A DNA stretch of 22,727 nucleotides. It comes from a virus. Position 1 is the first letter of the stretch. Each line of letters opens with the position of its first letter. Positions 1-19,900 of the stretch are shown here, one piece after another. Location of the stretch: the IMG/VR virus record IMGVR_UViG_3300025168_000722, positions 1-22,727 of that record; one strand, given 5' to 3'. A model generated the notes under the pieces. That model saw only the letters and a list, made by a program, of their open reading frames with translations, was not told the origin of the DNA and did not search any database. A program made the position numbers and the translations under genes.

Positions 1-1
1 C

Positions 2-241
2 TGGTTACCGACTCAAGAGCGTCCTTACCTACCAGCCCCTGAAGATGTTCCGGACAATATGGTGATTAGATTATCCGCTGCTAAGATTGACGGCTCATTT
101 GGTAAAGCCTGGAGCCATGGATCCAGCGTTGTAACCGATGGAACAGAGACTTGTCCATCAGGTAAGCAGGGCAACCAATGCTTAGATTGTAGAGCTTGCT
201 GGAATAAAGACGTTGTTAACGTCTCATACGGTAAACACTAA
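2..241 (+). CDS. Gp88-like phage protein, C-terminal part (5' end outside window)
   Basis: The frame is open from the window edge to TAA at 239-241, giving about 79 residues and no convincing start, so this is the 3' end of a longer gene. An internal ATG at 59 falls mid-domain. The C-terminus has a cysteine cluster, CPSGKQGNQCLDCRACW, preceded by WSHGSSVV. This matches my memory of the 'gene product 88' family of phage/mycobacteriophage proteins, which end in a CxxCxxCW-type cluster; their function is unknown and metal binding by the cysteines is inference. Base composition is richer in G+C than most of the window. The next ORF starts 1 nt after the stop. The family call is from recognition by eye; that the stretch is coding is more certain than the name. 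Confidence 0.6.
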   Translation, partial: WLPTQERPYLPAPEDVPDNMVIRLSAAKIDGSFGKAWSHGSSVVTDGTETCPSGKQGNQCLDCRACWNKDVVNVSYGKH

Positions 242-242
242 T

Positions 243-407
243 ATGAATCACAGCTGGAAGCATCCAACACACTATAAAAAAGTGAGCGATAAAAGAAAAA
301 AAATCCATGAAGAATGGATCAAGGACCAGGAAGAGAAACTGCGGCAAATTGACGCAGGACAAGATGCGCACCCGAAGGGTGCGACAAAATGTCGCAGGGC
401 AAAATGA
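243..407 (+). CDS. small basic hypothetical protein (54 aa) running into repeats
   Basis: ATG at 243 follows the preceding stop by one base, which suggests translational coupling. An in-frame TTG at 213 is less likely. The product is rich in Lys/His and predicted helical (KRKKIHEEWIKDQEEK). From about residue 34 the codons are supplied by the palindromic repeat cluster that starts near 340, including the stop at 405-407. The present C-terminus may therefore be repeat-derived rather than ancestral. I recognise no family. A distinct Shine-Dalgarno sequence is not visible, so expression would depend on reinitiation from the upstream gene. Confidence 0.4.
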   Translation: MNHSWKHPTHYKKVSDKRKKIHEEWIKDQEEKLRQIDAGQDAHPKGATKCRRAK

Positions 408-497
408 CGCAGGACAAAAAGCCTCAAGCTGCGGCAAATTGTCGCATGACGATAAGCCACAAGCTTCAAGCCACAAGCTTCAAGCTGCGACATATTG
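340..497 (+). repeat. palindrome and 7-bp tandem repeat cluster 1
   Basis: Several copies of a near-palindrome TGCGACA-N3-TGTCGCA: 340-356 (TGCGGCAAATTGACGCA), 380-396 (TGCGACAAAATGTCGCA, both 7-bp arms perfect), a half copy around 398-411, 430-446 (TGCGGCAAATTGTCGCA) and a partial copy at 486-497. A separate perfect hairpin CGCACCC-GAA-GGGTGCG lies at 367-383. From about 458 to 485 a heptamer CAAGCNN is tandemly repeated (CAAGCTT, CAAGCCA, CAAGCTT, CAAGCTG). The same combination recurs at 965-1146. I know no named repeat family that matches. The palindromes could be binding sites for a dimeric regulator, or the region could act in packaging or recombination. Confidence 0.8.
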
Positions 498-563
498 CTT
501 CTGTAAAACAAAATTTACCTGTGCGAGAATACCTTTTTAACAAATCAAAAAGGAGAATAAAAA

Positions 564-914
564 ATGTCACTAAAATACGATTACACCAAACTGGATACAG
601 GCAGCTGGACTCAGGACGATCACAACATTGCGAAAAATTTTTGTTGGACGATGTCTTTTATCGATCAAACAAAAATTACGGAAAAAAACAAAACAGAGGT
701 TTTGTTCCGGATCGAATTTCTCCAGGAGCTGGGGATGGGTCCTTGGACTCACAGACAATCGATCCCAGTGGTCAGAAAACAGATCAAAAAATTGATCGGT
801 TACGAAACCAATGTTGGGGAAAAATCTACGGCAAAGTTTATGAGCCGATGGATGAAAACTTACAAAACAAGAACCCTGGAAAGAATGAACAAAAAATTAC
901 AGGAAGCAAAATAA
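564..914 (+). CDS. hypothetical protein (116 aa), single-gene unit
   Basis: ATG at 564 has a strong ribosome-binding site (AAAAAGGAG about 9 nt upstream), and the stop at 912-914 is followed after 8 nt by an intrinsic terminator, so this looks like a monocistronic gene. The protein is soluble, with several tryptophans and a basic C-terminal helix (RWMKTYKTRTLERMNKKL). No signal peptide, TM segment or catalytic motif is evident and I do not recognise the family. It lies between the two repeat clusters. A 189-residue overlapping frame at 389-958 was rejected because its N-terminus is repeat-derived and it lacks a comparable RBS. The repeat-terminator-bounded layout resembles an independently acquired small gene, which is inference. 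Confidence 0.75.
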   Translation: MSLKYDYTKLDTGSWTQDDHNIAKNFCWTMSFIDQTKITEKNKTEVLFRIEFLQELGMGPWTHRQSIPVVRKQIKKLIGYETNVGEKSTAKFMSRWMKTYKTRTLERMNKKLQEAK

Positions 915-922
915 TCCAGCAG

Positions 923-954
923 CTGGGGCCCAGGATCTGGGTCCCAGTTTTTTT
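923..954 (+). terminator. rho-independent terminator
   Basis: CTGGGGCCCAG (923-933), loop GAT, CTGGGTCCCAG (937-947), then seven T (948-954). This is an 11-bp stem with a single G-U wobble and a 3-nt loop, directly after the 564-914 gene. It is the clearest terminator in the window. Confidence 0.92.
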
Positions 955-964
955 ATGAAAGGAG

Positions 965-1146
965 GTGCGACATATTGACGCATGGCGATTTGCCGCATTG
1001 ACAGGCAGCCACAAGCTTCAAGCCACAAGCTGCGACATATTGACGCATGGCGATAAGCCACAAGCTACAAGCTTGCTAATTTTTTAAGAGAAGCTTCAAG
1101 CCCCAAGCTGCAAGGTTCAAGCTTCAAGCCACAAGCAACAAGGTCC
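965..1146. repeat. palindrome and 7-bp tandem repeat cluster 2
   Basis: TGCGACATATTGACGCA occurs at 966-982 and again, identically, at 1031-1047. Each copy is followed by TGGCGAT and then CAAGC-type heptamers. The 1031 copy continues TGGCGATAAGCCACAAGC, nearly the same as cluster 1 after its 430-446 copy (TGACGATAAGCCACAAGC), so the composite unit is about 43 bp or longer. The stretch 1091-1143 is an almost uninterrupted CAAGCNN heptamer run (CAAGCCC, CAAGCTG, CAAGGTT, CAAGCTT, CAAGCCA, CAAGCAA). From 1065 onward the cluster overlaps the 3' end of the leftward nuclease gene and supplies its last 20 or so codons. Confidence 0.8.
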
Positions 1147-1427
1147 TTGATCCGGGAACCTTCATAAAGTTTTACCTCCTTGCTTAAGAGGGCCTTTACC
1201 AGGATAAAAGTATTGTGTGGGTGTATCAAATGGAACGCTATTTGATGTGGTGATATGGTAATTTTGTTGGTCTTTGTAACTTTTAATTCAACAGTGAAAA
1301 AGATGCCGTTATTATTATAACCCAATACATCGGGAGTACCCAAAGCGCTAAGGTTTTCCAGTCTAGTCCAGTAAATTTCACTCTTAATTTTTCTAACATC
1401 TTGCCAAAATTTTGTCTCGGGTTTCAC
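1065..1427 (-). CDS. VRR-NUC-type PD-(D/E)XK nuclease (120 aa)
   Basis: The catalytic order of VRR-NUC nucleases is visible: GTPD with Asp33, then E47-L-K49 (FTVELKV), then Gln62 after a short polar stretch (ISPHQ). This family cuts structured DNA (Holliday-junction-like or flap substrates), and in phages it is thought to help resolve replication or packaging intermediates. The listed start is GTG at 1427. No ATG or strong RBS is available close by, and the gene upstream on this strand ends at 1441, so coupling is likely. The C-terminus after about residue 95 is encoded by heptamer repeats (e.g. ACGLKLEPCSLGLEA) and is probably not part of the fold. The family core is about 90-100 residues, consistent with a repeat-derived tail. 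Confidence 0.8.
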   Translation of the reverse strand: MKPETKFWQDVRKIKSEIYWTRLENLSALGTPDVLGYNNNGIFFTVELKVTKTNKITISPHQIAFHLIHPHNTFILVKALLSKEVKLYEGSRIKDLVACGLKLEPCSLGLEASLKKLASL

Positions 1428-1806: not shown

Positions 1807-1831
1807 ATCAATACTTACAGAGTGCGACAAA

Positions 1832-1990
1832 ATGACAAAAGATAAAGCTAGACAATGGGATGGTAAATCAAGGCCCACAAATGACGTTTATAAGCAGCGT
1901 TGGCAAGAGATATTTGGTAAGAAAAAACCAATTAAAAAACTACCTCAAGAAGATCAAAAATATTTAGATAGTTTAAAAAACAAATTATAA
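1832..1990 (+). CDS. conserved small phage protein upstream of terminase (52 aa)
   Basis: The start is ATG at 1832 (MTKDKARQWDGKSRP). Upstream in-frame codons back to 1778 give a Cys-rich stretch unlike the rest. The product is small and basic and ends KKKPIKKLPQEDQKYLDSLKNKL. The ARQWDGKSRP...YKQRWQEIFGKK pattern is one I associate with short proteins encoded just before small terminases in marine phages. No biochemical role is known to me. The stop overlaps the next ATG by one base (TAATG), so it is co-translated with the HExxH gene. The start codon sits inside a sequence matching the TGCGACAAAATG palindrome seen at 380, which may link its expression to the same regulator. Confidence 0.7.
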   Translation: MTKDKARQWDGKSRPTNDVYKQRWQEIFGKKKPIKKLPQEDQKYLDSLKNKL

Positions 1991-2406
1991 TGAAAAAGAA
2001 AAAAGTAAAAAAACATTTTAGAAAACCAGAAAGATCTATTCCAGTTGAAGCAAAGGGGTTACCTGACATGGTTAGAATTGGCTATAAAGATGTTAAGATT
2101 AGATATGTCAGACCAGATTATAAAAAATGGGAAATGACTGATTGTTTTGGAGAGTATGATTACAGACAAAATATTATACAAGTACAACATGATTTATGCG
2201 GTCAAGAAATAGCTAATACAATCTTTCATGAGATCTTACATGCTGCAGTACAAATCTCTGGATTAAACCAGGAGAAAGCACCGCTGGAGAAACCAGAATT
2301 TGAAGAAGCTGTGGTTAATCAATTAACCAATGTAATGATGGGTGTATTTAGAGATAACCCTTGGATGATTGATATGATTAAAAATCAATTAGAAGACACA
2401 GACTAA
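1990..2406 (+). CDS. HExxH zinc-metallopeptidase-like protein (138 aa)
   Basis: A zincin motif HEILH occupies residues 80-84 (TIFHEILHAAVQ), within a predicted helix. Glu105/Glu106 follow and could be the third zinc ligand on the next helix, as in SprT- or ImmA-type folds. The basic N-terminus (KKKKVKKHF) may bind nucleic acid. The protein is short for a protease, so it may be a minimal zincin domain or a catalytically inactive derivative. It is coupled by TAATG overlaps both to the gene before it and to the small terminase after it, so its job is probably tied to packaging or to a host protein met at that stage. The substrate is unknown. The motif is certain; the activity is inferred. Confidence 0.75.
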   Translation: MKKKKVKKHFRKPERSIPVEAKGLPDMVRIGYKDVKIRYVRPDYKKWEMTDCFGEYDYRQNIIQVQHDLCGQEIANTIFHEILHAAVQISGLNQEKAPLEKPEFEEAVVNQLTNVMMGVFRDNPWMIDMIKNQLEDTD

Positions 2407-2957
2407 TGGGACTTCCTAAAAAACTTACAGAACAACAAATTAAATTTGCTAATTTATTAATTGCTGATCAAGGTAGAAAAACAGCTACAGCTTGTGCAAT
2501 AGAAGCAGGATATGCCAAAGATTCAGCTAGACAACATGCAAGTAAATTACAGAATCCAAAATTATATCCATTAGTAGTTCAATACATTGGAGAGTTAAGA
2601 GAAGAATGGCAGAAACAATTTGAAGTAACATTCGGTAGTCACATATCAGAGTTAGCCAAACTTAGAGATGAAGCTAGAGATAAGAAAGCCTGGTCAGCTG
2701 CAGTAAATGCAGAAGTAGCTAGAGGTAAGGCTGCAGGGTTGTATATAGAACAGAAGATAATTCGTACCGGTAAGCTAGAAGACTTAACAACAGAAGAGTT
2801 AGAAGGCAGAATGAAACAAATACTGGATGAATACTCACCAATACTGGAAGGTGTTGAAGTTCAAGAATTAGTAGAAAAAGTAAGATCGCAGCCAAACTTA
2901 GAAGAAGATCAAGAAACATTAGATCTCTTAAACATCAAAGATATTACAAAACAATAA
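2406..2957 (+). CDS. terS: terminase small subunit (183 aa)
   Basis: The N-terminal ~70 residues fit the Terminase_2 HTH pattern: LTEQQIKFANLLI, GRKTATACAIEAGY, SARQHASKLQNPK, then VVQYIGEL. In this family the HTH domain recognises the packaging site and the helical remainder oligomerises and recruits the large ATPase/nuclease subunit. The middle (SELAKLRDEARDKKAWSAAVNAEVARGKAAGLYIEQ) is the typical helical segment, and the C-terminus is acidic. Length is normal. ATG at 2406 overlaps the upstream stop. Unusually, no large-subunit gene follows: a 257-bp non-coding region and then convergent genes come next, so terL is either elsewhere or on the other side of a genome end. Confidence 0.88.
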   Translation: MGLPKKLTEQQIKFANLLIADQGRKTATACAIEAGYAKDSARQHASKLQNPKLYPLVVQYIGELREEWQKQFEVTFGSHISELAKLRDEARDKKAWSAAVNAEVARGKAAGLYIEQKIIRTGKLEDLTTEELEGRMKQILDEYSPILEGVEVQELVEKVRSQPNLEEDQETLDLLNIKDITKQ

Positions 2958-16980: not shown

Positions 16981-19900
16981 TATGCTAAACCTCTTTGTCT
17001 TAATCTAATCATTTTTTCTTCTTGAGATAATAATGCGTTTTCTGTGTTGGTTAATCCCTCATTCAAAGGTTCCGTTGCTTGAGCCTTAACACTTGCTTGT
17101 ATAACATTTTGGTTAGGCATTGGAGTCTGTGGTAACATTGGAGTTTGTACTTCTTGTTTGGTAATGTACTCATTAATATCAATTTGATCATCAAACTCTT
17201 CTTCTAAATTTAAATTTTGCATATCAAAATCTACTTCGGCTAATACAGTAGTTATATTATCCATGGATTCTGTAAAGGCGGTAGATTCTACATGTCCACC
17301 TACAGCAAAGTCTGCTCTAAATCTTTCATCAAAACCTAAAGCTTTAAGATCTCTTTTAATAGAATTTAAATCTCCTCTAGCTGATAAAAAAGCATTATCT
17401 TCACCTAAATTTAAAGATATTTCTTTAAATTTTTTAATAATATCTTTAGAAGGGTAGTAAGGTTCAAATCTTCCTTTATTCAAATTATTAAATGTTTTTC
17501 CACTTAATTGTCTTTCTTTAAATACTTTTCTTAGTTCAGAAGAACTATTACCTAACTCTTGAGCAGCTTCTAAATCTCTAAACATTTCTTTTTGAACTTC
17601 AAATCTAGCTTTATTAGATTTAATATATCTACTAACAACATCATTGTCATCTATAGAACCACCTTTTAACAGACCAAAAAATCCTCCTGTAAATTCTCTT
17701 CTAGCATTTCTTATTCCTGTTTGATAACCTGCAATTTTAAAATTCATTGCATCTAAGGGATCTATTTTAACAGGTCTAAATCCCATGAATCCTGCTAACT
17801 CTGGTCCTATTTCTAATTCATTTCCTCTTTTATCAGGTATTCCAAAAGAAGCTTGTCCTATTCTTAATCCTTGTTTGTAAGAAGGTGCTAAAGCATTACC
17901 TAAATGCATAAATTGAATAGCCATTTTATCTCCTAGTGGAGTTTGATCAGTATACAATTGTCTTCCTTCAGAAGTTCTTCCACCCCTTATAACTAAATCT
18001 GCCATAGCTTCTGTCCAAATAGATTCGGATATAAATGGATTCATAATTTCTCCACTTGCTTCACCTACCCCTGCAGTAAATCCTTCTAATAAAGTGTCTC
18101 CATTTTCTTGACCTTCTTGAATATTACTCATTAAAGTTCTAAATGGTCTAGCCATTAAATCGTAAGCATTACTTTTACTAAAATCTATATAGCTTAATTC
18201 GCCATCATCATCTCTAATTGGAACTAACGTAGAATTTTTAGACCAATCAGGAACAAATCTTCTCATCGCATCAATTTCATCTTCAGTTACATCGTACAAA
18301 GCTTTTGCTCCTTCAGTAACTGCAACAGGAACAGCAGTTAAAGTAGTGGCCATACCTGCAATTCTTTTCATTCCAGTTCCGTATGTTCCATTAGTAATAG
18401 CATTATTTTTAACTACTCTAGTACTTCCATCTTTTAATACTTCTGTAACTGTTAAACCTATATTACTTCCTTTAATTCTAACTACTCCCTCACCTTTTAC
18501 ATGTGAAAGTTCTTTAACACCTTGTCTAGCAATATTAGTAGTAGTTCTTATAATTTCAGATGGAAAAGACATAAAGTTACCAATAGGCAACAGTCTTGCA
18601 GTCTTAACTGCTTGTCCAACGTAAGCATAATTAGGTACTGTATTCTTAACAATTTCTGCAGCTTCTTGTTTTAATTTCCAAAGAGCTTCATTTCTTATAG
18701 GAATACCATTTTTTATTTTTTCAAAACCTTTAACTAAACCAATTGAATTTTCGTAAGCTTCTACAGTCATGTTTTTACTTTTAGCAGTGGCTTTAACTAT
18801 TCTATCTAATTCTACAACAAAGTTAGTAATTTTAAAGGTATCATCTTCTGCCATATATTTACCTTGAAAAAATTCTCCTATTTTTTTAAATTTTTTGAAC
18901 ATTCTACTTAAACCATAATCATTATTTAATAAATTTTTTCCACCTGCAGAATCTTTAATCAAAGAAGTCATATCTCCTAATTGAACTTGTGAATTTGTTA
19001 TACCTAATTCTAACATATCTCTATATGCTCTTTGATTAGCAGCAGTCCCTGCTTCCACTCCACCAAGTTTTAATAAACCAGATTCACCTATTCCTCTTCT
19101 AAAAGCTTTAGCAAATGTTTTTGGATTTTCTAATGCAAAAGGTATGATACCATTAGCTGCACTAAAAGCTCCTGCACTCATAAAATTTCTTATATGAGTT
19201 GGAATTGAAAAAATAGTTTTTGCCATTTGTGAAACACCTTTTGGAAACATTAATAAGTTTCTATAAAACCAACTAACTCCTGCTTCAGGACCACTCATTT
19301 TTTTATCCCCTCGTACAAAACCTTGAAAAGTTGTTGGAATATCATTTGCAAATTTTATAGCTTCACCTATTTCTTTAGTAGTCCATTTAGCATTTAAAGG
19401 ATTTATAATATTTTTTGTAGCATCAATTTCACCTAAAATTTCACTCATTCTTACTACTTCTATTCCAGTTTCCCCAGAATTAACTGCTTCTTTTGCAGCG
19501 GCTTCATTTTTCCAAAAAAAACCTCTTCCACCTTTTGCTTGAACTTGATCATTTTTAAGAGATATTTGACCTATGTAATCTGCAGTTCTGGCTATGTTTG
19601 AAAGATTACTAATACCATTAAATAAAGTAAACCTAGGATCTTCTACTTGTCCAAATAATTGTTTAAGAGCTTGTTTTTCACTAGCTGATCCTTTTGATGT
19701 TGATTTTAAACCTATTTTAAAAACTTCTTTTGATCCACCTTTTTCCATTGTTTTAGATATATATTTAAAATCAGGTAAATCTTTTGGAGATTTTACTTTT
19801 TCTGCTTGTCTTAAAATATCATCTACAATTGATCTAGCTTCTTGTTCAGTTCTTGTTCCATTTTTTGTAAATACATTTATTGCATTTTTATATGATTCAT

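Follow-up and report, generated by a model that had tools for sequence, protein, structure and literature searches.

RegA-like palindromes and heptamer-array promoters: two candidate regulatory modules beside the terminase genes of an HTVC027P-like phage

Why should a short interval ahead of the small terminase gene of a marine phage be crowded with palindromes and 7-bp tandem repeats, and do the two belong together? The window, by which we mean the whole stretch of 22,727 nucleotides (22.7 kb) analysed here, encodes a DNA polymerase, a helicase and the small terminase subunit TerS, and no tRNA genes were found in it; its GC content is 32.5%, and that of the repeat regions 45-50%. An earlier note, made from the sequence alone, had treated palindromes and heptamers as one composite repeat that might constitute operator clusters, a packaging or recombination site, or a selfish element. 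The closest isolate is Pelagibacter phage HTVC027P, with DNA identities of 72.9% over window positions 1-246, 71.6% over 1091-1657 and 76.7% over 2404-2887. Searching with the gp33 fragment recovered 50 related loci, a figure that overstates independence because some contigs are near-duplicates, and later counts were deduplicated. In most of these relatives homology to the window resumes only at about 1083-1111, within the last array, and positions 247-1088 are therefore specific to the window's phage among them. The end of a gp33-like gene is followed by a small ORF, three palindromes with a degenerate copy, a first array, a half site, a single gene with a hairpin behind it, a fourth palindrome, a degenerate 15-mer with TTGACA, an array, the fifth palindrome, further arrays, minus-strand genes and terS (Table 1). 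The segment is best explained as a regulatory and cassette-bearing interval that, in a phage akin to HTVC027P, separates the gp33-like gene from terS.

Table 1. Genes, predicted RegA-type boxes and heptamer arrays, in order of position in the window.
Feature	Position	Strand	Remark
gp33-like gene, C-terminal part, truncated at contig end	2-241	+	HTVC027P gp33 homologue
Small ORF at gp32 position	243-407	+	in-frame ORF 213-407, ATG at 243
Predicted RegA-type box 1, TGCGGCAAATTGACGCA	340-356	+	exact consensus match
Predicted RegA-type box 2, perfect palindrome TGCGACAAAATGTCGCA	380-396	+	exact on both strands
Degenerate box, 15-bp register with box 2	395-411	+	3 mismatches
Predicted RegA-type box 3, TGCGGCAAATTGTCGCA	430-446	+	exact consensus match
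CAAGCNN heptamer array	453-485	+	lone CAAGC also at 425-429
Half box TGCGACATATTGCTTCT, at array end, upstream of cassette gene	486-502		3 mismatches on - strand
Putative single-gene cassette, 116 aa	564-914	+	array-flanked
Intrinsic terminator-like hairpin after cassette gene	921-949	+	13-bp stem, then T run
Predicted RegA-type box 4, TGCGACATATTGACGCA	966-982	+	exact consensus match
Degenerate 15-bp box (983-997), then TTGACA (998-1003)	983-1003	+	palindrome-15-TTGAC layout
CAAGCNN array	1012-1030	+	motif match
Predicted RegA-type box 5, same as box 4	1031-1047	+	exact consensus match
CAAGCNN array	1054-1072	+	motif match
ORF matching PHROG 2165 (annotated DNA helicase)	1065-1427	-	PHROG match
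CAAGCNN array	1090-1143	+	homology to relatives resumes here in most
Imperfect box over ATG 1832 of gene upstream of terS	1823-1839	+	2 mismatches
terS, small terminase subunit	2406-2957	+	PHROG 51, E 3.8e-11

The region is not purely intergenic, because the 3' end of the small ORF traverses palindromes 1 and 2, as HTVC027P gp32 likewise reads into its own array, and the 3' end of the minus-strand ORF coincides in part with the last arrays; the product of this ORF is 67% identical in amino acid sequence to that of HTVC027P. In window 1065-1146, as in HTVC027P gp32, genes run through heptamer arrays into low-complexity C-terminal tails, and CAAGCNN repeats are free of stop codons in every + strand frame.

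All five copies of the palindrome TGCGRCA-N3-TGWCGCA stand exactly where the earlier note had located them, and with up to three mismatches allowed the window holds 18 matches, against 1.24 expected (largest count 6) in 100 shuffles. The palindrome at box 2 is indeed perfect, and the identity of boxes 4 and 5, formerly put at 17 bp, in fact spans 24 bp (TGCGACATATTGACGCATGGCGAT). A 15-bp tandem period runs over 383-419, and the spacing that separates box 4 from its TTGAC recurs in loci L191 and L258. Absence from relatives, or arms lacking conservation, had been named as grounds to doubt a functional role; the symmetric form TGCGACAWWWTGTCGCA, the class to which box 2 belongs, instead occurs in at least 120 viral stretches and gathers around terminase and gp33 in the phage group of the window. 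The longer exact string CAAGCTGCGACATATTGACGCA was matched in no other viral sequence. Among the matches listed, most stretches derive from this one group (TerL family, 71; family of ORF 1065-1427, 46; TerS, 44; gp33, 31; cluster names taken from the window's genes and gene order), low-GC contigs prevail, with values up to 64% also seen, and 57 of 150 gene-oriented placements fall within 450 bp upstream of terL; many other gene starts also carry palindromes. Base pairs flanking the palindromes are no commoner than in shuffled sequence (54 vs 50.8 at the first pair) and changes within the arms mostly affect one side; both points favour recognition by a protein over folding into a hairpin.

Across 342 oriented sites, TTGAC directly abuts the palindrome in 34 and lies 15 bp away in 29, with at most six at any other offset. 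These TTGAC sequences were considered as -35 elements and rejected, given a mean -10 score of 2.7, equal to background, and a frequent antisense orientation to the terL-side genes. Viral palindrome clusters also often adjoin other short repeats, namely TACTACATCTAGTA-like sequences and GTGGGCGGGWCCCACCC hairpins, as at about 1464-1590 in L182 and in L026, L084, L116 and other viral loci. Among the named phages scanned, the palindrome is absent from HTVC023P, HTVC027P, 023Pt_psg01, DSL-LC04 and CRP-902, and CRP-810 and MinM2 have matches with a GC-rich spacer only; its AT-centred form was not found in any isolated phage with a known host.

Bacterial genomes give an indication of what may bind these sites. 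The symmetric palindrome was detected in 20 of 398 Pseudomonadota genomes, against one for the reversed control, and its neighbours include regB-like kinases, ccoN, the copper storage protein Csp1 and copper-type TonB receptors. A RegB-like kinase (at least 110 bits) is encoded in 17 of the 23 genomes with the site vs nine of the 27 without; BlaI/MecI/CopY was rejected as the binder, BlaI being present in six of 23 and five of 27, respectively. In eight genomes no more than about 4 kb separates the site from regB, and in three (G240, G003 and G352) the site is directly upstream, the regB ORF starting 38-118 bp away; regA follows regB in G240 and G003, and in G003 a site also precedes ccoN, which encodes the cbb3 oxidase and is a known RegA target. 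In the bacterial loci L132-L155, the exact palindrome likely marks a RegA copper/redox regulon comprising regB, ccoN, Csp1 and copper TonB receptors.

The phage motif itself agrees with the RegR box given in PMC5506826, GNGRCRTTNNGNCGC, down to the R and N positions at which the window copies differ, and all five window copies fit the RegA/RegR half-sites GNGRC...GNCGC in inverted order; boxes of B. japonicum begin TGCGACA, TGCGGCA or TGCGTCA. Published RegA sites are degenerate and mostly situated ahead of the -35 element (PMC5506826), and their spacing varies, such that consensus fit alone makes a weak argument. RegA is a copper-binding protein and regB/regA share a transcript with senC (PMC9147068), in agreement with the copper genes beside bacterial sites. 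Moreover, the segment MHRRTLQR is the same in RegA of a 1.2-Mb, 31% GC alphaproteobacterium and in the RegAs of two genomes that carry the exact site. The composite pattern of palindrome and array yielded five matches in bacterial genomes, each a palindrome without arrays, and a literature search by motif string returned unrelated papers only. Together, the fit to the RegR box, the linkage to regB and the one-sided arm changes favour the suggestion of operator clusters, and would specify the operator as a RegA/PrrA/RegR-type box.

Whether the cognate regulator would be brought by the phage or found in the host is informed by the phage genomes. A search of 43 phage records, several of 44-165 kb but many fragmentary, gave no HTH_8/Fis-type (RegA/Fis-like) protein above the cut-off; a phage-encoded binder of this kind was rejected, and a host-supplied RegA-type regulator is therefore preferred. 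The palindromes might alternatively be operators of a phage-encoded regulator with another fold, their likeness to RegA boxes being convergent, and the many copies per genome that cluster at gene starts, as those of phage repressors would, together with the absence of the site from the group's isolated SAR11 phages, lend this some weight; we nevertheless consider it rather unlikely, as the at least 120 stretches share terminase-region and structural genes and no obvious small regulator family, and as bacteria show linkage of regB to this very same symmetric sequence. In strain HTCC1062, host of the nearest isolate, RegBA is one of only four two-component systems (PMC13198564). HTVC023P and HTVC027P, however, infect SAR11 and lack the palindrome, and sampled alphaproteobacterial genomes of up to 1.4 Mb gave a single match to the exact box, with a GC-rich spacer, so that the host of the window's phage may be another RegBA-bearing bacterium.

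The heptamers tell a different story. Arrays of CAAGCNN sit where the earlier note had placed them and far exceed chance, with 17 matches to CAAGCNNCAAGC at up to one mismatch vs 0.94 expected, all except one of them within 418-1143, on the + strand. Arrays of at least two heptamers are present in 47 of the 50 gp33 loci, near-duplicates included, always in the same orientation and chiefly at three places: ahead of gp33, ahead of the small gene before it, and behind gp33. Those at gene starts end in CAAGC followed by TTGACA, with TTGAC directly adjoining the array (offset 0) in 33 of the 44 non-redundant cases; the 44 unique array-TTGACA promoters have a -10 hexamer matching at least four of six consensus positions in 40 cases, vs 28% for TTGAC anywhere in the loci, and a 17-bp spacing in 41. 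The relatives' arrays thus lead into all the parts of a sigma-70 promoter, that is TTGACA, about 17 bp, a -10 hexamer and then a gene start, and no TTGAC follows the third array, after gp33. The genes downstream are gp33 (15 non-redundant cases) and at least 13 unrelated small families. Among the named phages scanned, arrays occur in HTVC027P only, HTVC023P being devoid of both modules, and are confined there to the end of gp32 and the regions upstream of gp33 and gp34, plus one stray two-unit match. The two HTVC027P genes with array promoters, gp33 and gp34, constitute a temporal cluster of their own, with a peak at 6-9 h, in published RNA-seq data (PMC12753301). As the core TTGACA-17-TAGGAT also exists without an array in HTVC027P, at 19224 and 19774, the array is an added module.

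Because most relatives have conserved arrays and no palindrome, and because the arrays lead up to sigma-70 promoters, the arrays are not the palindrome's partner as such. The notion of one composite repeat thus holds insofar as both components are real, and fails insofar as two separate modules, not one repeat family, meet at a single locus. These observations support a role for the arrays as upstream promoter elements and cassette borders, with a protein probably binding the heptamers as a direct-repeat array. A parS-like TTTCACGTGRAAC was also observed in the gene block beside the arrays in five of 51 related loci (L006 4133, L183 1566, L187 681, L191 1779 and L193 5484).

The arrays might also be conceived of as functionless repeats, selfish or born of slippage, that are tolerated because they introduce no + strand stop codon. 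Their variable copy number and NN letters, their overlap with ORF ends, and the roughly 100 array matches in some bacterial genomes are all compatible with such an origin. We regard it as unlikely, and the selfish repeat proposed earlier as the less supported reading, since orientation is invariant, locations are conserved and the junction with TTGACA-17-TAGGAT is fixed, whereas the bacterial arrays inspected are mostly short inverted array pairs, which is another layout. The Pseudomonadota genomes G194 and G197 contain 99 and 101 matches, respectively, to a four-unit CAAGCNN array, in the inspected examples often as inverted pairs that are potential hairpins.

The gene between the two repeat clusters does stand alone, as the earlier note had described, and has its own terminator-like hairpin. 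Its product has no PHROG match and a single relative in viral contigs, 70% identical, in L258, where a palindrome-15 bp-TTGACA element is also nearby, but upstream of the gene. No convincing sigma-70 promoter was found for the cassette in the window. The gene is located in the 3' array of the locus, and the split arrays therefore now flank it; judged from this arrangement, it would be an exchangeable array-bordered cassette, with exchange occurring through the arrays.

Proximity to terS raises the prospect that palindromes and arrays form the recognition structure of a packaging (pac/cos) or recombination site. Beyond the terL-proximal placements noted above, alignments end within arrays slightly more often than at random (11% vs 6%), which lends weak support to recombination at arrays. 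Packaging is not indicated, because several small genes have arrays at their promoters, palindromes occur at many other gene starts, and HTVC023P does without both modules; taken as a whole, this account seems very unlikely. Lastly, a 7-bp stem closed by a 3-nt loop could form from the symmetric 17-mer, and some flanks lengthen this stem, yet arm position 5 is mismatched in three of the five window copies and the changes in the arms are mostly uncompensated, so that a DNA or RNA hairpin (terminator, REP-like or processing element) in place of a protein-binding site is largely refuted and highly improbable.

From the sequences, their conservation and position, the promoter match and the linkage of the exact palindrome to regB, we consider the best joint explanation, with slightly better than an even chance of being right, to be one of host-RegA-type boxes, a separate array-promoter module and a cassette interval. 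The palindromes would be sites for a dimeric response regulator of the RegA/PrrA/ActR/RegR type, most likely supplied by the host, and a host redox regulator would thereby control phage genes in the vicinity, which in relatives are terL, those of the gp33 region and accessory genes; RegA binding, and whether it would activate or repress, we infer from sequence likeness. The heptamer arrays would be an independent module, positioned immediately ahead of the -35 element in sigma-70 promoters of small interchangeable genes, probably acting as a direct-repeat binding array and also bordering exchangeable cassettes, of which the window gene in the 3' array of the locus would be one. The broader proposition, that a large group of uncultured marine phages took over a host RegA site at terminase and accessory promoters and also possesses an undescribed 7-bp array module for cassettes, is more tentative, and we rate it somewhat below even.

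These findings suggest that such phages tie part of their gene expression to a host-supplied regulator. If the RegA reading is true, phage gene expression would track the redox or copper status of its host. Transcription regulators are very scarce in SAR11 and other streamlined marine bacteria; should abundant phages of these hosts respond directly to one of them, RegBA, infection would become sensitive to the redox state of the cell. Heptamer-array promoters may, in turn, offer a sequence handle on the gp33/gp34 class of HTVC027P, found by RNA-seq yet unexplained, and on the swapping of small accessory genes among pelagiphage-like genomes.

Several known systems share features with the two modules. 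The predicted phage sites resemble RegA/PrrA/ActR/RegR boxes in their GCGRC and GNCGC half-sites and in the positions at which variation is tolerated, and the exact palindrome is linked to regBA, ccoN and copper genes; they differ in being near-perfectly symmetric, clustered, and placed at terminase and accessory genes and beside heptamer arrays. In stoperators of the mycobacteriophage L5 type, too, a single regulator site is repeated many times across the short non-coding gaps of a phage genome. Stoperators, however, lack symmetry and are recognised by a repressor that the phage itself encodes; the window palindromes are symmetric, and a repressor of that kind was not found. The CAAGCNN arrays of Pseudomonadota chromosomes are built of the same heptamer, in the examples inspected mostly as hairpin-capable inverted pairs, whereas those of the phages run in a single direction and end at promoters. 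In this last respect the phage arrays recall pho boxes, which are direct-repeat activator arrays immediately upstream of the -35 element; both are tandem direct repeats at -35, with a period of 7 bp in the phage arrays, not the 11 bp of pho boxes.
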